Shown: piece by piece, positions 52,533-64,000 of the stretch
Position numbering within the stretch: the stretch's first letter is position 1
How the letters are laid out: every line of letters starts with the position of its first letter
Source of the DNA: Bacillota bacterium
GTDB taxonomy: Bacteria > Bacillota > Clostridia > Peptostreptococcales > Anaerovoracaceae
Direction: 5' to 3'
DNA: 64,000 nucleotides
Assembly: GCA_030530285.1 (NCBI GenBank)
Contig: JAUMVD010000002.1
Location: forward strand, 1 to 64,000
Notes under the pieces: generated by a model
What the model was told of the DNA's origin: nothing
Seen by the model: only the letters and a program-made list of their open reading frames with translations
Database searches by the model: none
Translations under genes and position numbers: made by a program

Positions 52533-53051
52533 TTATCTGTCCTGCATACTGATACTCTCGATGGCAACAGGGCCGCCTCTCACCACCTCGATGCTTTTGA
52601 ATCTGTCGTAGATGACGTCGAGGATCGAGTCGTTCTTTACTTCCGTCCTGCAGGATTCGATCAGCACAGAGGATCTGTCCATGTCCTTGATCTGGAATTT
52701 GAAGGCCTCGGCCATCTGGAATATCTCGGCGCGGGTCTTCTCGGTGACGCCGTAGATCTTGATGAACATGACTTCCTTCGTCCTTATGGATATGTCCGTA
52801 TAATCGATGACCTTGATGACCTCTACACTTCTGTTGAACTGTTTTTTGATCTGCTCGTACGTGCGGTCATCCGCGTCCACACATATGGTCATTCTGGATA
52901 TGGAGTGATCTTCCGTCTCTCCTACCGTCAAGCTGTGTATGTTGTACGATTTGCCGCTCAAAAGCCCCGATATTCTGGCAAGTACTCCGATTCTGTTCTC
53001 TACGAAGAGGGAGAGCCATCTTCTTTTCATTCCATCGTTATCGTTTTTCAT
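52533..53051 (-). CDS. ilvN: Acetolactate synthase small (regulatory) subunit 1
   Basis: A 172-aa regulatory subunit. The N-terminal ACT domain (about 13-85: VENRIGVLARISGLLSGKSYNIHSL) binds the feedback inhibitor valine; a C-terminal AHAS-specific domain follows (about 90-165). Its start overlaps the large-subunit stop by four bases. Paired with the 577-aa large subunit; a second pair is encoded divergently. Confidence 0.95.
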   Translation of the reverse strand: MKNDNDGMKRRWLSLFVENRIGVLARISGLLSGKSYNIHSLTVGETEDHSISRMTICVDADDRTYEQIKKQFNRSVEVIKVIDYTDISIRTKEVMFIKIYGVTEKTRAEIFQMAEAFKFQIKDMDRSSVLIESCRTEVKNDSILDVIYDRFKSIEVVRGGPVAIESISMQDR

Positions 53052-54781
53052 CGCACCTTCCCTCCTTCAACACTGGTGATGAGATCTGTTATCGGTCCGC
53101 CCGGTTTGATCATCGGCAAAACGAGTTCTTCTTCTTCGATGAGAAACTCTATGATCGTCGGCCCGTCTTTCTTTGCCTTCGCGGCCTTCAGAGCCTTTGC
53201 GATATCCTTCTTCTTCGTTACCCTGATTCCCTGGGCGCCGTACGCCTCTGCCAGCTTCACGAAATCCGGAACGTATTCCACCGTTCCGTCTTCCTTATGC
53301 CATTTGAGGTCCGTTCCCGCATAGACTTTATTTCTGAACAGATCCTGCCACTGCCGCACCATGCCCAGATATCCGTTATTCAGGATACAGATCGTGATCG
53401 GCAGTCTGTTGATGGTGGCTGTGGTCATCTCCTGGGAATTCATCTGGAATCCGCCATCACCTGTCACCGCAACGACATCCATGCCCGGATTTCCCAGAGC
53501 CGCTCCGATGGCCGACGGCAGGCCGTAACCCATGGTTCCCAGGCCGCCGCTGGTGATCAGCTGCCGGTTCCCGTATATCTCAAAGAACTGCGTCGCCCAC
53601 ATCTGACTCTGTCCGACATCGGTAGTCAGGATGAGGTCATCGTAGTTTTCATTGATCGCATCGATAATGTCCTTCGGGCAGAGCTTTTTCTTTTCTTCCA
53701 TGTGCAAAGGCTTGCTGCTCTGCCATTTGCCCAGCTGCTTGAGCCAGTCTTTATTCATTTCAACGGGCTCACCGTAATCGACGGCCTCGTAAAGCAGCTT
53801 GTGGATCGCTTCCGCCGCGTCTCCGACGATCGGAACATCTACATTTACGTTTTTTGATATGGACGCGGCGTCGATATCTATGTGGATGATCTTGGCCTTC
53901 GGCGCAAACGTGCCGAGCTTGCCCGTGATTCTGTCATTGAATCTGGTTCCTATGGAAATCAGAAGGTCGCAGTGGTTTACGGCATTGTTTGCCACGTAAG
54001 CTCCGTGCATGCCTACATTGCCGTAATAGAGCCTGTGATTGGTAGGGATGCTGCCCTTGCCCATGATGGTCGTAACCGCAGGTATGCCCGTGGCTTCTAC
54101 CAGTTCCTTCATCTGTTCGGAAGCTCTGGCAATCTTCACACCGCCTCCCAGAAGGAACAGCGGTCTCTTCGCCTTATAGATCATCTTGATGGCTCGTTTG
54201 ATCTGCCCGTCATGAACCTTCGTGTTCGGTCTGTACCCCGGAAGGCTGACCGTCTGCGGGTATTCATCACTTCCCATTTCAGCCATGATGTTGCTCGGCA
54301 GATCCACCAGAACCGGTCCCGGTCTTCCTGAACGGGCTACGAAGAAAGCTTCTTTGATCGCCTCGTTAAGTTCATCCCTGGTCCTTACCATCATGGAATA
54401 CTTCGTGATATTCCTGGTGATTCCGACGATATCTACTTCCTGGAAGGTGTCGTTGCCGATCAGTCCGGTGGACACCTGTCCCGTGAAACATACCAGCGGC
54501 ACACTGTCCAGATTGGCGTCGGCTATACCTGTAACCAGATTCGTGGCACCCGGCCCGCTGGTTACCAGACACACGCCTGTATTGCCTGTCGATCTGGCGT
54601 ATCCTTCCGCGGCGTGGATGAGTCCCTGTTCGTGTCTCGGAAGTATCAGCTCAACGTTGTCCTGTTTCTCCAGCGCGTCAAAAATATCAATGACACAGGC
54701 GCCCGGATATCCAAAAAGCTTCGTAACGCCTTCTTCTTTAAGCGCCTTGACGAAAAACTCGTTTCCTGTCATTCTTCCCAT
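53048..54781 (-). CDS. ilvB: Acetolactate synthase large subunit 1
   Basis: A 577-aa TPP enzyme joining two pyruvates into 2-acetolactate (or pyruvate and 2-oxobutyrate). The TPP-activating Glu is in LILPRHEQGLIHAAEGYAR, FAD/TPP-binding domains follow, and the C-terminal domain has GDGGFQMNSQEM for TPP-Mg. Length is standard. A TTGACA-17-TATAAA promoter precedes it, and a GGAGG site. Divergent from the ilvBNCD unit, so the two promoters share a 240-base region. Confidence 0.95.
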   Translation of the reverse strand: MGRMTGNEFFVKALKEEGVTKLFGYPGACVIDIFDALEKQDNVELILPRHEQGLIHAAEGYARSTGNTGVCLVTSGPGATNLVTGIADANLDSVPLVCFTGQVSTGLIGNDTFQEVDIVGITRNITKYSMMVRTRDELNEAIKEAFFVARSGRPGPVLVDLPSNIMAEMGSDEYPQTVSLPGYRPNTKVHDGQIKRAIKMIYKAKRPLFLLGGGVKIARASEQMKELVEATGIPAVTTIMGKGSIPTNHRLYYGNVGMHGAYVANNAVNHCDLLISIGTRFNDRITGKLGTFAPKAKIIHIDIDAASISKNVNVDVPIVGDAAEAIHKLLYEAVDYGEPVEMNKDWLKQLGKWQSSKPLHMEEKKKLCPKDIIDAINENYDDLILTTDVGQSQMWATQFFEIYGNRQLITSGGLGTMGYGLPSAIGAALGNPGMDVVAVTGDGGFQMNSQEMTTATINRLPITICILNNGYLGMVRQWQDLFRNKVYAGTDLKWHKEDGTVEYVPDFVKLAEAYGAQGIRVTKKKDIAKALKAAKAKKDGPTIIEFLIEEEELVLPMIKPGGPITDLITSVEGGKVR

Positions 54782-54826
54782 GTTTTACCTCCGCATAGTT
54801 ACCGATTATATGTAGCATTCAATACC

Positions 54827-54855
54827 TTTATATATTAAGCATTCTGCCTTGTCAA
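54827..54855 (-). promoter_or_regulatory. Promoter of the ilvBN-ilvE unit
   Basis: Minus-strand TTGACA (54850-54855), exactly 17 bases, TATAAA (54827-54832). The leader is about 45 bases with no T-box visible. Confidence 0.8.
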
Positions 54856-54949
54856 TATTCAAATCACCGATTTGTGCGATTTTTTGTTAAAAATGCATAT
54901 CTATTTTTCAATATCATTGTTTGAAATCACAAATTTTTAATAAAAACAG

Positions 54950-54977
54950 TTGCTTTTGGGTCGTATATGCATATAAT
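54950..54977 (+). promoter_or_regulatory. Promoter of the ilvBNCD unit
   Basis: TTGCTT (54950-54955), 16 bases, TATAAT (54972-54977). The leader is about 37 bases and ends in AAGGAGGACTATCAA before the ATG; it is too short for a T-box. Confidence 0.72.
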
Positions 54978-55020
54978 ATAGTATGGACATAGTTGAAATT
55001 ATCCCAAGGAGGACTATCAA

Positions 55021-56682
55021 ATGAGAGTGAACGGCTCGCAGCTAGTTATGGAAATACTGTTGCAGCATGGTGTCGACACGGTATTCGGATACCCCGGCGG
55101 CGCCGCGCTGAACCTTTATGACGCGTTGTTCGAATATAAAGATCGAATCAAAAACGTCACCACTGCCCACGAACAGGGCGCTTCCCACGCGGCTGACGGC
55201 TATGCCAGAGCTACCGGAAAAACCGGCGTCTGCTTCGCCACCAGCGGACCGGGAGCGACAAACCTAGTCACCGGAATCGCCACAGCGTTTATGGACAGTA
55301 TACCGCTCGTTGCCATAACGGCAAACGTGCCTGACAGTCTGATTGGCAGAGACGCTTTTCAGGAAGTCAGCATATCGAACGTGGTGATCCCCGTCACCAA
55401 GCACACCTACTTTATCAACAGGATCGAGGATCTGGAAGACGCGCTCTATAACGCCTTCCGCATCGCGGCCAGCGGACGCAAAGGTCCTGTCCTTGTCGAT
55501 ATCACCAAAGACGTGACGGCTGCCATGACAAACTTCAAACCGAGAGATCCCATGCCGCTCAACCCTACCCCATCATTTCACGATGATGATCTGAGGAAGG
55601 TTGCGGACATGATCAATTCATCATCCAAACCGGTCATCTATTGCGGCGGCGGAGTTGCCGCGTCGGATGCGGGATCGGAGCTTTTGCAGCTTATGGACAA
55701 GGCCGGTATTCCGGCAGCACACACGCTGATGTCAGCAGGAGTCATCGGATTTGATAATCCTAAGAATCTCGGCATGGCAGGCATGCACGGAACCATTGCG
55801 GCGAACAAAGCCTTTGACAGAGCTGATCTGATGATCGCTCTCGGCACCAGATTCAGCGACCGCGTCGCTTTGAATCCGACCAAATTCGGCAGGCGCGCCC
55901 AAAAGATCCAGATCGATATTGACGCCAGCGAAATCAATAAGAACGTATTCGTTGATCTGGGAATCACCGCGGATATCAAGGAGTTCCTGACACAGCTTTT
56001 GCCTCTCATCAAAGAAAACGATCATGAGGAGTGGCTTTCACTGGCTACCGGCTGGAAAAAAACCACCGGCGACGTCAAGAGCGGTGATGCGGAACTTCAT
56101 CCTAGTGAAATCATCGGGACTGTTTGCGATATGACCGATAAAGAAACCATCTATGTTACTGATGTGGGACAACACCAGATGTGGGCCGCGCAGTACCTGA
56201 AACACGAGAAGACCAAGCACTTCCTCTCCAGCGGCGGTCTGGGAACGATGGGCTACGGATACGGCGCCTCCATCGGAGCGCAGGTCGGATGCCCTGACGC
56301 CAGAGTCATCCACTTCACGGGAGATGGTTCCTTCCATATGAATCTGAATGAAGCATGCACCGCTGTCAGCGAGGAACTGCCGATCATCACGATCATCTTG
56401 AACAATCAGGTCCTCGGCATGGTATATCAATGGCAGAATATATTTTATGACGGCAGATATTCCGCCACGGATCCTCACAGGAAGACCGACTTCGTCAAGG
56501 TGGCGGAGGGATTCGGAGCCAAGGGCTTCCGGGCCGACACGCCTGCTGAATTCGAGGAGGTTTTCGCAAAGGCCCTGAAAGAAAAAGGCCCTGTTTGGAT
56601 CGATTGTCACATCGCCAAATCAGAATACGTGTATCCGATGATCCCGGGCGGCGGGACGATCGAAGACATGATCATAGGATAA
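55021..56682 (+). CDS. ilvB: Acetolactate synthase large subunit 2
   Basis: A 553-aa large subunit, a paralogue of the enzyme at 53048-54781 encoded on the opposite strand. The TPP-activating Glu is in TAHEQGASHAADGYAR, and the Mg-TPP motif is GDGSFHMNLNEA. It is 24 residues shorter, mainly at the C-terminus and in loops. First gene of a clean ilvB-ilvN-ilvC-ilvD operon, so it is likely the main biosynthetic form. AAGGAGG precedes the ATG. Confidence 0.95.
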   Translation: MRVNGSQLVMEILLQHGVDTVFGYPGGAALNLYDALFEYKDRIKNVTTAHEQGASHAADGYARATGKTGVCFATSGPGATNLVTGIATAFMDSIPLVAITANVPDSLIGRDAFQEVSISNVVIPVTKHTYFINRIEDLEDALYNAFRIAASGRKGPVLVDITKDVTAAMTNFKPRDPMPLNPTPSFHDDDLRKVADMINSSSKPVIYCGGGVAASDAGSELLQLMDKAGIPAAHTLMSAGVIGFDNPKNLGMAGMHGTIAANKAFDRADLMIALGTRFSDRVALNPTKFGRRAQKIQIDIDASEINKNVFVDLGITADIKEFLTQLLPLIKENDHEEWLSLATGWKKTTGDVKSGDAELHPSEIIGTVCDMTDKETIYVTDVGQHQMWAAQYLKHEKTKHFLSSGGLGTMGYGYGASIGAQVGCPDARVIHFTGDGSFHMNLNEACTAVSEELPIITIILNNQVLGMVYQWQNIFYDGRYSATDPHRKTDFVKVAEGFGAKGFRADTPAEFEEVFAKALKEKGPVWIDCHIAKSEYVYPMIPGGGTIEDMIIG

Positions 56683-56693
56683 GGAGGCATCAT

Positions 56694-57212
56694 ATGGATA
56701 AAACAGAAAGATCTGAAATACTGAGTATACTGGTATCGAATGAGCCCGGCGTAACGGCGCGTCTTGGAAGTCTGTTTGCCAGACGCGGATTCAATATCGA
56801 CTCCTTTACCGCATCGCCTACCAACGATCCGAAACTGACCAGAATCACTATCGCAACTACCGGAGATGACAGGAAGTTCGATCAGATTCTGACCCAGACG
56901 GCGAAGCAGGAATTCGTCAAGACCATCGACATCATGGATGCCAAGAGTATATACAGAGAGCTTTTGCTGCTCAAAGTAAAGGCGGACAAAAAAGACCGTT
57001 CGCAGCTGATGGAGATCGTTGAGATCTACAGAGGCCGGATCGTGGACCTGTCCAGAAAGAGCATGATCATCGAACTGACAGGCTCATCCGAAAAGATCGA
57101 CGGCTTCATGGATATGATGAGTTGCTATGATCTCATCGATGTCTGCAGAACAGGTGTAACAGGAATCAATCGCGGGGATGCCGGTATTTCCGACAGCAGC
57201 GATGATCAATAA
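56694..57212 (+). CDS. ilvN: Acetolactate synthase small subunit 2
   Basis: A 172-aa subunit with an N-terminal ACT domain (about 9-80: VSNEPGVTARLGSLFARRGFN) and the AHAS-specific C-terminal domain. I chose the ATG at 56694, with AAGGAGG eight bases upstream, over a longer in-frame reading that overlaps the large subunit. It sits 11 bases after the large-subunit stop. It differs clearly from the other small subunit in the valine-site region. Confidence 0.95.
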   Translation: MDKTERSEILSILVSNEPGVTARLGSLFARRGFNIDSFTASPTNDPKLTRITIATTGDDRKFDQILTQTAKQEFVKTIDIMDAKSIYRELLLLKVKADKKDRSQLMEIVEIYRGRIVDLSRKSMIIELTGSSEKIDGFMDMMSCYDLIDVCRTGVTGINRGDAGISDSSDDQ

Positions 57213-60742: not shown

Positions 60743-63094
60743 CTATCTTCCGTCCTTTGCTACGCTTCTGAGTATGATTACACTCAGTACGATGGTGATG
60801 ACGGCCATGCCGATTAATATCCCCCATTCTCCGAGGAGCCATCCCGGATCCCAATCGAACATGTTTTCATCCGTATCATCCGGAACCGGCAGTCCGTTTT
60901 CATTCAGATCCAGTTCTCTGAGGTTTGCGATCCTCCCCATGGAATCGACGGACCATCTGCTGATGGTGAAATATGATATTCCCGTCGCTATCCCCTTTAA
61001 TTTAAACAGGATCCCCGAGAAGAGAAGCTGCACGATCAGGATAAACGGCGCCATCGTCATGGCTTTGTCTCCGGTCTTCACGATGGATGAAATGAGAAGC
61101 CCCAGCGCCATGGACGCCAATATGGTGATCCATACCGCAACGATGATTTCCGCATAGACCCCGCCGATTGGAAACAGCACATCATCGGCTTCTATATCCA
61201 CATTGCCCCCGTCTTTGAGGATATCCAGCATCCCCAGGAAAGTCAGTGTCATGAGAACCGCCTGAATCAGTCCCAATGCCGCCTGGACCACCACCTTGGA
61301 CATGATGTAGACATAGAGCCTGAGATTTGCCATGTATTCTCTCTTTAAAATGCTGCGTTCCTTGCATATCTCCTGTATGGAATTGAACAGCCCGATCCAT
61401 ATTGCCGCACAGCTGAGAACGAACATGATCGATTTCGTGGATCCGTATATGTCAAATACGTTTTTCTCTGCAACAATGTATAATAATACTCCGATCAATA
61501 TCGGTTCCAAAAGCAAGATCAGGAGTTTTCTCTTGTCGTTGACGATCAGCTCAACATAGCGCTTTGTGATCGTTGAAAACTGGCTGAGAGCGGAGACACG
61601 GGATCTTTTGAACTGTTCCGTTGAGCCCTTGGCGGCGCGGCTGCCGCTGCCGGCGGATGCCTGTCTGTACCGATTGGCCCAGTATTCCGGGGCTTTGCTC
61701 ATCATATTGTAAATATCCGTCAGGTCATCGGTCTGGAAGAATTTGCGGGCTTCATCCACGCTGCCCATAAAGCAAACTCTGCCTCCCTGACCCATGAAGA
61801 TGACCTTGTCGCACAGATGCAGACTCTGCGTCGTGTGCGTCACCATGACGATCGTTCTCTCCTGCTCTTTGCACAGTTTGCGCAAAGACTCCATCAGGTT
61901 TTTCTCCGTTCCGGGATCAAGTCCTGAAGTAGGCTCATCCAGGAAGAATACCCTCGGATCTGCCAGCAGCTCTACGGCGATGCTGGCACGCTTTTTCTGA
62001 CCTCCCGAAAGCTTTCTGATCAGCGTATCCTGATGCTGCTGCAAATCCAGTGTTTCCAGCACCTCGGTGATTCTGCCTTCCAATTCGGATTCGTCCAGAT
62101 CTTCCGGCATCCTCAGCTTCGCTGTATACATCAGCATGCTTCGCAATGTAAGATTTTCGTATATGATGTCCTGCTGCGGCACATATCCTATGACGCCTTT
62201 CAGCTGCTGGAAGTTTTCTTTCAGCGGCGTGCTGTTAAAAAACACCTCTCCTTCATAGTCCTTATCAAACCCGTTGAGCGTGCTCATGAGCGTCGTCTTG
62301 CCGGCTCCGCTTCCGCCGATAATGGCGACGAACTCATTGCTTTTGATTTCTATGTTAACGTCCCTGAGAATGCATTTCCTTTCTTTGCCCTTGCCTACCC
62401 ACTTGGTCACTCCGTCTGTGCTGATGCTGATGCCGCCGACGGTCTTTCTGTAGTAGATATAATTCCCTGAAAAAATCAGCTGGAATCCGGAGATCTCTAT
62501 GACGTCCTTATCCTTCAGAACCCTTTCTTTGTTGACCGGCGTGCCGTTTACGATCACTCCGTTAAGGCTTCGGTTGTCTCTGATGTAGTATTTACCCGCA
62601 TGTTTGGAAACCACCGCATGTACTCTGGAAACACTGGGATGATTCAGAATGATATCATTCGTAGGATTTCTGCCGATCAGAATCTGGTCTTTGTTCAGAT
62701 CGGTTCTGTCCATCACGGCATCCGCGCTCATGTAGGTGAAGAAGATCAGGACCATTTTGTCGGGGTTTTTGCTGCTTCCGATCCGTATGATCGAATGATT
62801 CTTCAGCTCAACCGCTTCATTTGTGTGTTTCAAATGCAGCTGGCTGGATCCGGATATGACCATGCTGCCGTTGCTGCTGTCCAGATCCTGATAAGCGAAT
62901 CCCCCGTTGCTTCTGATGAACGCCCCGTGGGTTCCGGAAACAAAAGAATCACTGATTTGTATGTCGTTGATATTCTTCATCCTGCCGAACGTGATGGTGT
63001 CAGACTGGTAGCTGTCCAGATTTGCTCTGGCGAAATTGCCCATACTGTCGACGATAATCAATGTCGGAATCTGCGTTATATCATATGAATTCAT
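60743..63094 (-). CDS. FHA-FHA-ABCG-type transporter
   Basis: A 783-aa fusion. Two N-terminal FHA domains bind phospho-Thr peptides: the first at about 35-105 (FGRMKNINDIQI, SGTHGAFI, DLDSSNGS), the second at about 138-207 (IGRNPTNDIIL, VSRVHAVV, DNRSLNGVIVNG). An ABCG-like ATPase follows: Walker A GGSGAGKTT (260-268), LSGGQ (362-366), Walker B VFFLDEP (382-388). Six membrane helices of the ABC2 type end the protein (about 520-780). The layout resembles mycobacterial Rv1747, which is controlled by a Ser/Thr kinase, but no kinase is seen in this window. The gene lies 15 bases after the TIR-FHA gene. It is probably a phospho-gated exporter; the cargo is unknown. Confidence 0.92.
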   Translation of the reverse strand: MNSYDITQIPTLIIVDSMGNFARANLDSYQSDTITFGRMKNINDIQISDSFVSGTHGAFIRSNGGFAYQDLDSSNGSMVISGSSQLHLKHTNEAVELKNHSIIRIGSSKNPDKMVLIFFTYMSADAVMDRTDLNKDQILIGRNPTNDIILNHPSVSRVHAVVSKHAGKYYIRDNRSLNGVIVNGTPVNKERVLKDKDVIEISGFQLIFSGNYIYYRKTVGGISISTDGVTKWVGKGKERKCILRDVNIEIKSNEFVAIIGGSGAGKTTLMSTLNGFDKDYEGEVFFNSTPLKENFQQLKGVIGYVPQQDIIYENLTLRSMLMYTAKLRMPEDLDESELEGRITEVLETLDLQQHQDTLIRKLSGGQKKRASIAVELLADPRVFFLDEPTSGLDPGTEKNLMESLRKLCKEQERTIVMVTHTTQSLHLCDKVIFMGQGGRVCFMGSVDEARKFFQTDDLTDIYNMMSKAPEYWANRYRQASAGSGSRAAKGSTEQFKRSRVSALSQFSTITKRYVELIVNDKRKLLILLLEPILIGVLLYIVAEKNVFDIYGSTKSIMFVLSCAAIWIGLFNSIQEICKERSILKREYMANLRLYVYIMSKVVVQAALGLIQAVLMTLTFLGMLDILKDGGNVDIEADDVLFPIGGVYAEIIVAVWITILASMALGLLISSIVKTGDKAMTMAPFILIVQLLFSGILFKLKGIATGISYFTISRWSVDSMGRIANLRELDLNENGLPVPDDTDENMFDWDPGWLLGEWGILIGMAVITIVLSVIILRSVAKDGR

Positions 63095-63109
63095 TCTTTC
63101 ACCTTGCTC

Positions 63110-64000
63110 CTACAACGATAATTTCCATGTGTAACGACTGCTTCCGCTGATGATGTTATCTTCATTCTGCAGCCTTCGTTTTTCCCCGTAAAATAATCTC
63201 TCTCCGTTGTACCAAACATCTTTATCCATCTGACTGTTGATCAGATAATATGCCTTCCCCGAATTAAGGATAACGAAATCGTCAATGACGGTAACCGGCT
63301 GATCAGGCACATTGATTTCTCCTGCGTCTGTGATCAGAACGTGTTCGGGCATTTTCCTGATGTTGGACTCATCATAATCTTCAAAGAAAAGGAACAGTTC
63401 CTTTCCCAGCGATACCGTATCCCCATCCTTTAAGTCATTTTCGATCCAGGGAGCGAGGATCTGTCCGTTCAGAATCGTATGATTCAGCGATTCGTTATCG
63501 GTTATGGTGTATCGGCCGTTGATCCTTCTCAACGTAGCGTGTTTTCTGCTTACGGTCTTGCTTCCCTCCAGAGTGTAGTCACTCTGGCTTTTGCTTCTTC
63601 CCAGAGAAAAGATATCCTTGGTGATGTATATCTTATCACCGGTACCGACCCGGTAAAGAAAGCTTTGTTTCCGGCTGTATTCATTCTGCGCGATTCCTAT
63701 GGTGAGCGTCAGCGTGCTTTCGGTTTCTTCAAATAAGCCGGGGATGATTTCCGGTCTGAACTCGCCGCGGCAGCCCTGGATCCGCTCGTTTTCATACGCC
63801 CTGGAGATGAACTCCTGCACCGATGCGTATCTGGAACGGTAAATGCCCTGCACATTGGAAAGAACCATTTCCATTCCCGGCGATAGCTTCACGTCATCCA
63901 GAAACAGGGTGATGATCTCCTTGTTCTTCTGCACGGCGAAATTGATCTCACTTCTGCAGTTATGGGACGTCATGCTGTTTTCGGTGATGAATGCGACAAA
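63110..64000 (-). CDS. TIR-FHA protein (N-terminus beyond the window)
   Basis: The reading frame is open to the window edge and continues with FVAFITENS before the first Met at 63973, so the gene is truncated at its 5' end here; 296 residues are visible. The first 50 look like the end of a TIR domain (FVAFITENSMTSHNCRSEIN, then FLDDVKLSPGM), and a hydrophilic linker leads to an FHA domain (about 125-205: SLGRSKSQSDYTL, VSRKHATL, DNESLNHTILNG). The last 80 residues may be a second, weaker FHA-like fold. The FHA-FHA-ABCG transporter follows after 15 bases in the same unit. The TIR active-site Glu, if present, is probably the E in CRSEI. Function is inferred: TIR domains either cleave NAD or mediate protein contacts. 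Confidence 0.78.
   Translation of the reverse strand, partial: FVAFITENSMTSHNCRSEINFAVQKNKEIITLFLDDVKLSPGMEMVLSNVQGIYRSRYASVQEFISRAYENERIQGCRGEFRPEIIPGLFEETESTLTLTIGIAQNEYSRKQSFLYRVGTGDKIYITKDIFSLGRSKSQSDYTLEGSKTVSRKHATLRRINGRYTITDNESLNHTILNGQILAPWIENDLKDGDTVSLGKELFLFFEDYDESNIRKMPEHVLITDAGEINVPDQPVTVIDDFVILNSGKAYYLINSQMDKDVWYNGERLFYGEKRRLQNEDNIISGSSRYTWKLSL

Follow-up and report, generated by a model that had tools for sequence, protein, structure and literature searches.

Gene Content and Organization of the Locus

The analyzed window was a 64,000-nucleotide stretch (positions 1–64000, forward strand) of contig JAUMVD010000002.1 from assembly GCA_030530285.1 of a Bacillota bacterium (Anaerovoracaceae). 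The contig (C4) was 85.5 kb in length and started with the window; coordinates are the same in both. A gene for an FHA-FHA-ABC-ABC2 protein and, 15 bp upstream of it, an open TIR-FHA gene had been described in a first-pass annotation, and both reading frames were found as described. The part of the TIR-FHA gene inside the window (63110–64000, minus strand) opened with FVAFITENS...HNCRSEI...FLDDVKLSPGM and was completed by extension along the contig. The region past position 64000 was found to encode the predicted kinase and PP2C as well as additional FHA proteins (Table 1).

All listed genes of the cluster, from PP2C to FHA-FHA-ABCG, were located on the minus strand. The start of the STAS gene was overlapped by the stop of the gene for the 58-aa peptide, and only one base separated STAS from TIR-FHA; therefore, these three genes are probably cotranslated. 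A terminator-like hairpin (judged by eye) and a 380-bp gap followed the 3′ end of the kinase gene, and thus the kinase and the first PP2C may form their own transcript. An approximately 220-bp repeat with CCCCACT...AGTGGGG arms was located between the kinase and PP2C genes (C4:71381–71601); four more near-full copies (75–85% identity) and several fragments were found elsewhere in the genome, and it resembles a mobile element of the non-autonomous kind or a structured repeat. On the window side, the cluster was flanked by branched-chain amino acid genes, with two adjoining divergent pairs of acetolactate synthase large/small subunit genes at 52533–57212.

Table 1. Features of the cluster on contig C4 and of TIR and kinase proteins at related loci (TM, transmembrane segment; LRR, leucine-rich repeats).
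Feature	Position	Strand	Remarks
PP2C phosphatase (first)	C4:73671–74534	−	5′-most gene of the cluster; beyond window
Transmembrane Ser/Thr kinase	C4:71672–73639	−	Beyond window
PP2C phosphatase (second)	C4:70515–71291	−	Beyond window
DUF5684/zinc-ribbon/FHA membrane protein	C4:69323–70504 (= L002:11324–12505)	−	Beyond window
ECF sigma factor	C4:68815–69363	−	Beyond window
C39-peptidase ABC transporter	C4:66810–68852	−	Beyond window
Second ABC transporter	C4:64805–66838	−	Beyond window
58-aa peptide	C4:64574–64750	−	Beyond window
STAS	C4:64200–64577	−	Beyond window
TIR-FHA, 362 aa	C4:63110–64198	−	3′ part (63110–64000) within window
TIR domain, visible part (residues 67–141)	63776–64000	−	PF13676
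FHA domain of TIR-FHA (residues 176–275)	63374–63673	−	PF00498, model, fold match
Second FHA-like beta domain, degenerate (residues 285–361)	63116–63346	−	Model, weak FHA HMM match
FHA-FHA-ABCG exporter, 783 aa	60743–63094	−	Rv1747-like architecture
Second FHA domain of ABCG protein (residues 131–208)	62471–62704	−	Pfam
ABC ATPase domain (residues 243–390)	61925–62368	−	Pfam
ABC-2 membrane domain (residues 505–716)	60947–61582	−	Pfam, hydrophobic segments
TIR–lysine-flanked TM–BspA-type LRR	L093:9992–12343; L094:9995–12634
TIR–arginine-flanked TM–PASTA-like–C-type lectin	L196:10689–12191
TIR–TM	L095–L097
Ser/Thr kinases, one TM, C-terminal LRRs beyond TM	L088:10871–13579; L089:8705–11941		Adjoin TIR-FHA genes

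TIR-FHA and FHA-FHA-ABCG Proteins

The TIR fold proposed for the N-terminal part of the TIR-FHA protein was confirmed by a Pfam TIR_2 match (PF13676, 61.5 bits, cut-off 28), by the AlphaFold2 model (mean pLDDT 85.5), and by structure comparison with SPARTA TIR-APAZ, AbTir, and SARM1 (Z 15–16). The model comprised TIR (residues 1–141), FHA (178–275), and an FHA-like sheet domain (285–361); the latter, degenerate domain matched the FHA HMM with 21.6 bits. The FHA domain proper gave 66.5 bits with Pfam FHA (PF00498, cut-off 20.7) and was close in structure to EmbR/DgcB (Z 17) and GarA (Z 16). With the TIR_2 profile, this gene was the sole TIR gene found in the whole genome.

The TIR domain kept SHNC and the WYDEGI-PG loop. 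Glu84 within SHNCRxE (at about 63947–63949), which we take from the known motif to be the catalytic TIR Glu, was kept in all 20 loci of the comparative set described below. A TIR fold with this Glu has the features of TIR NADases, and cleavage of NAD by the protein is predicted. The phospho-Thr-pocket residues of the FHA domain (GR, SRxH, SLN, NG) were present; G200, R201, S217, R218, H220, N239, and N244 were invariant in our alignment (A1), and the domain is a putative phospho-Thr binder.

Regarding the ABCG protein, Pfam identified two FHA domains (103 bits), ABC_tran (104 bits), and ABC2_membrane (69 bits). Homologues were encoded in 11 of the 49 genomes of the genus, its own included. From the TIR-FHA and FHA-ABCG genes, the first-pass annotation had inferred a phosphorylation-gated export system with a TIR module, perhaps serving stress or defence. 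Synteny ruled out the pair as a conserved unit: a kinase gene sits between the two in two close relatives (L073, L074), six relatives (L075–L080) had FHA-FHA-ABCG with no TIR in view, and no FHA-ABCG gene was found at STAS-TIR loci outside the close-relative group, to which the pairing is restricted. Of that proposal, the presence of TIR in a phosphorylation-linked export locus stands. TIR is accompanied by a peptide exporter of the NHLM/PCAT type, which in the window genome is encoded past position 64000.

NHLM-Type Exporter and the Ala-Ala Peptide

The exporter consisted of two NHLM-type ABC proteins, one of which had, in residues 1–145, an intact C39 peptidase with Gln, Cys, His, and Asp all present (QMEASECG, NHFVV, NDP; PF03412, 128 bits). 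The window exporter scored under the curated cut-offs of TIGR03796 (545 bits against 853; 530 bits in L084) and TIGR03797 (241 bits against 709), and the exporter of L091, with the same synteny, exceeded all three curated cut-offs (TIGR03794/03796/03797), with 1010 bits for TIGR03796 and 790 bits for TIGR03797. A 59% homologue of the C39 transporter was found in one congener, which had nearly the same gene set over its two contigs (L039, L072); the DUF5684/zinc-ribbon/FHA membrane protein was also kept in L039. We failed to find a Gly-Gly precursor near the window exporter or, above cut-off, in the genome. A Nif11-type precursor elsewhere in the genome was also not found above cut-off, the best match (L165) being devoid of a leader motif. 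At the window locus, no precursor with a Gly-Gly/Ala/Ser leader was identified, and the Ala-Ala peptide was the only leader-bearing candidate found.

A reading frame for this peptide, 58–71 aa in length, was present in 16 of 17 exporter loci between the exporter and the regulatory genes, mostly directly before STAS; it was missing from L112, the locus of the cultured carrier Schaedlerella arabinosiphila DSM 106076, where exporter, STAS, and TIR were present. No Pfam or NCBIfam model matched the peptide above cut-off. It is under purifying selection (dN well below dS), and its model consisted of three helices with moderate confidence (mean pLDDT 75). The sequences had Leu/Met at position −12, mostly acidic or polar residues at −8, Leu at −7, and Val/Ile at −4, which is the register of the C39 recognition helix as LahT reads leaders (PMC6363468). 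Positions −2/−1 were Ala-Ala in every case, where cleavable leaders have Gly-Gly, and were followed by a short tail with a Phe invariant in the 15 aligned sequences. The same motif search in NHLM loci without TIR gave 41 Gly-Gly and one Ala-Ala; two AA or AS regular-expression matches in L091 and L097 were left out of the count as chance reading frames far from the cluster. Canonical Gly-Gly precursors adjoined the Ala-Ala peptide in L092, L093, L094, and L163. In microcin PDI, which is exported by a type I system, the Gly-Gly to Ala-Ala double mutant abolished cleavage, and single changes did not (PMC5311971). The Ala-Ala peptide can be read from its sequence as an uncleavable leader mimic, both the uncleavability and the docking to C39 being predicted. 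To our knowledge, no natural leader mimic of this uncleavable kind would have been known before this family of small peptides.

A blind search with the peptide HMM recovered loci L163/L196, encoding sigma, C39-ABC, ABC2, Gly-Gly peptide, Ala-Ala peptide, STAS, and TIR. It also found L164, in which the Ala-Ala peptide overlaps an ECF sigma gene beside the exporter, as it does in L057 from the window's own genus; Ala-Ala peptides are thus found beside regulators. The two overlapping peptides (L057:4359–4550, L164:1495–1695) belonged to NHLM loci and represent a second setting in which the Ala-Ala peptide occurs; one of them had both a Gly-Gly precursor and a radical-SAM-like gene beside it. Among 31 genomes of the order of G799, no further Ala-Ala peptides were found besides that of G799 itself.

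Conservation and Distribution

A profile of four TIR-FHA proteins was searched against a named genome collection, and 80 loci were kept. L082–L098 and L112 were linked to STAS, exporter, or kinase, and the other 62 had neither STAS nor C39. In forming the set of 20 loci, L086 was treated as a repeat of L072, and two further loci were included, that of the window and one that a later search supplied. STAS was encoded directly upstream of TIR in 18 of the 20 (all except L087 and L088), and the exporter was in view in 17: none was in view beside STAS-TIR in L089 and L098, and L087 had TIR-FHA and a kinase with neither STAS nor exporter in view. What is widely conserved, over several clostridial families, is the combination exporter–small peptide–STAS–TIR. 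Among its carriers are Oscillospiraceae, Lachnospiraceae, a Peptococcaceae assembly, and unclassified Clostridia; going by the record titles, most of these assemblies come from gut or rumen.

The system is rare and sporadic. The peptide accompanied STAS-TIR in two of 391 genomes of the class, its own included, the third match being L164 with the sigma gene; with the STAS profile, only generic STAS proteins without TIR were found in 398 genomes of the phylum besides its own. The 20 loci are related by descent, and we estimate about 10 independent lineages, with about three independent TM lineages. The STAS-linked TIR proteins may or may not share one origin and did not form one clean clade: on the poorly resolved TIR tree, the STAS-linked label needed at least two changes, against 18 in shuffles.

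Membrane Anchoring, Kinases, and STAS

Regarding the TIR proteins of the 20 loci, 14 had FHA and no TM, six had TM and no FHA, and none had both, TM segments being called from hydropathy and not by a trained predictor. LRR or C-type-lectin ectodomains were present in three of the six anchored proteins, and the positive-inside rule gives a cytosolic TIR with an extracellular LRR or lectin. The TIR-TM-LRR (L093, L094) and TIR-TM-PASTA-like-C-type-lectin (L196) proteins have a Toll-like-receptor-like topology. The kinases examined had one TM segment each. In the simplest reading of this either-or pattern, FHA docking on a phosphorylated receptor kinase probably replaces the covalent anchor, a suggestive conclusion drawn from about three independent TM lineages.

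Members of the STAS family shared an ED-E-L motif with invariant D52 and E53. The column taken to hold the phosphoserine of SpoIIAA/RsbV contained Ser, Asn, Gly, Ala, or Phe across 18 loci, with Ser in the window protein. The reading as a classical phospho-switched anti-sigma antagonist was rejected because the phosphoserine was not conserved, and a binding partner is the more probable role of STAS.

Proposed Function and Alternatives

Locus anatomy, conservation, the leader motif, and the intact catalytic and binding residues were observed directly. As their best explanation, which we put forward tentatively and at slightly less than an even chance, we propose a receptor-kinase-gated TIR output module monitoring or gating peptide export by means of an uncleavable leader mimic; its interactions, activities, exported product, and physiological cue are inferred. 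The C39-peptidase ABC transporter and its NHLM-type partner would process and export a leader-bearing peptide. The transmembrane Ser/Thr kinase would sense an outside cue by its extracellular C-terminal region and phosphorylate partners, and the PP2C proteins would undo this phosphorylation. The FHA domains of TIR-FHA, the ABCG exporter, and the membrane FHA protein would dock after phosphorylation; in relatives whose TIR protein has no FHA, TIR itself is membrane-anchored, a role that FHA docking probably takes over. The 58-aa peptide, with an Ala-Ala that presumably cannot be cut, would bind the C39 peptidase by its leader helix and act as a resident plug or reporter tying exporter occupancy to the STAS-TIR complex. 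Activated TIR would then consume NAD or make a TIR signal, shutting down the cell or the export programme.

Support for this explanation comes from the operon content and from the conservation, as a set, of the small peptide with exporter, STAS, and TIR; from the prevalence of Ala-Ala at these exporter loci (16/17) against its rarity at TIR-less NHLM loci (41 Gly-Gly to one Ala-Ala); and from the microcin PDI result (PMC5311971) along with a register fitting the C39 helix (PMC6363468). It is further supported by the blind HMM recovery of a locus with ABC2, Gly-Gly peptide, Ala-Ala peptide, STAS, and TIR, by purifying selection on the peptide together with the intact C39 motif and the TIR Glu in 20/20 loci, and by FHA and TM never occurring together (14 against six) with one-TM kinases bearing LRRs in L088 and L089. 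Against it count the peptide-less L112, the loci with no exporter in view (L089, L098, L087), the window exporter lying under NHLM cut-offs, the Gly-Gly precursor that was not found there, the non-conserved STAS phosphoserine, and the shared descent that reduces 20 loci to about 10 lineages. In its most specific form, which we consider rather doubtful, the proposal is a new regulator class: an uncleavable Ala-Ala leader mimic would occupy the C39 peptidase of the exporter and couple it to a STAS-TIR receptor module, with TIR either fused to extracellular LRR/lectin sensors or recruited through FHA to a transmembrane receptor kinase. The result would amount to a Toll-like receptor circuit in bacteria, based on a peptide exporter.

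The peptide could instead be an ordinary exported product, a shifted C39 cutting after Ala-Ala to release a charged helical bacteriocin or signal of 14–23 aa, with kinase, FHA, STAS, and TIR regulating production and protecting the producer. C39 is intact, no other leader-bearing candidate was found near the window exporter, and the peptide lies directly beside the exporter genes. However, the same exporter adjoins Gly-Gly precursors in L092, L093, L094, and L163/L196, so drift of C39 does not explain Ala-Ala; the tail, with its invariant Phe, is conserved and not variable like known cores, and the Gly-Gly to Ala-Ala change abolished cleavage in microcin PDI (PMC5311971). We regard this reading as unlikely.

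An anti-phage or abortive-infection module, in which TIR is recruited by FHA once the kinase has sensed infection and then depletes NAD, with the exporters as passengers, would suit a TIR fold close to SPARTA and AbTir, a kinase generically similar to defence kinases, and the sporadic, rare distribution (2/391 genomes of the class, its own included). It appears improbable to us: PADLOC gave no match for the characteristic proteins of a known system, its matches being limited to generic ATPase and kinase models and weak TIR ones, the conserved linkage is with peptide exporter, leader-like peptide, and STAS rather than defence genes, and the window flank consists of branched-chain amino acid genes. 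The 62 other TIR loci without STAS and C39 also speak against it, since they set the STAS-linked TIR group apart from ordinary TIR effectors. Many TIR domains are adaptors, and the FHA fusion, the STAS partner, and the membrane-anchored relatives would suit a non-enzymatic TIR whose sole role is to oligomerise the receptor complex and to serve as a scaffold for its STAS and FHA partners; yet the catalytic Glu in 20/20 loci, together with SHNC and the WYDEGI-PG loop, makes a pure scaffold improbable.

Comparison with Known Systems

In bacteria, TIR proteins are mainly known for their role as defence effectors triggered inside the cell. Here, TIR domains encoded in a peptide-export operon appear to be coupled to a receptor kinase and to surface sensors; if this is true, receptor-TIR signalling would become testable in bacteria. 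The combination of TIR, peptide exporter, membrane kinase, and small peptide points to a mechanism, not yet described, by which peptide export is sensed and controlled, and the peptide, if it is an uncleavable mimic, is a possible tool for blocking peptidase-containing exporters.

FxsC is a TIR-like protein encoded with the FxsABC ribosomal-peptide (RiPP) system; its model (NF040588) matched here with 28 bits, far under the cut-off of 130 bits. SPARTA TIR-APAZ, AbTir, and SARM1 share with our protein the TIR fold (Z 15–16) and the conserved Glu, but no Ago/APAZ is present here, the fusion partner of TIR is FHA (TM-LRR/lectin in some relatives), and the activity is predicted. The NHLM/NHLP bacteriocin export system likewise has a C39-peptidase ABC transporter, a second ABC protein, and leader peptides with the C39 motif (PMC2887384), whereas the window proteins are divergent and under cut-offs, and no HlyD partner was seen with them; that paper (Haft et al. 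2010, PMC2887384) makes no mention of FHA, STAS, TIR, or sigma. Rv1747/PknF of Mycobacterium also combines an ABC exporter bearing two fused FHA domains with a Ser/Thr kinase encoded nearby (PMC3908365, PMC5549992), while the window ABCG gene lies in a long cluster with peptide exporter, TIR-FHA, and STAS, its kinase gene not being adjacent. The T6SS threonine phosphorylation pathway (PpkA-PppA-Fha) similarly uses a kinase, PP2C, and an FHA protein to gate a secretion machine (PMC3953482, PMC5995506); the machine is another one, and a TIR output and a leader-like peptide are added here. A search of the literature, mostly outside subscription papers, found no description of an NHLM arrangement with TIR/STAS/FHA. 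Known parts (NHLM-like exporter, Rv1747-like ABCG, and kinase/PP2C/FHA control as in T6SS) are combined here with a TIR output and a new family of leader-like peptides, and this conserved arrangement was not found described in that literature.
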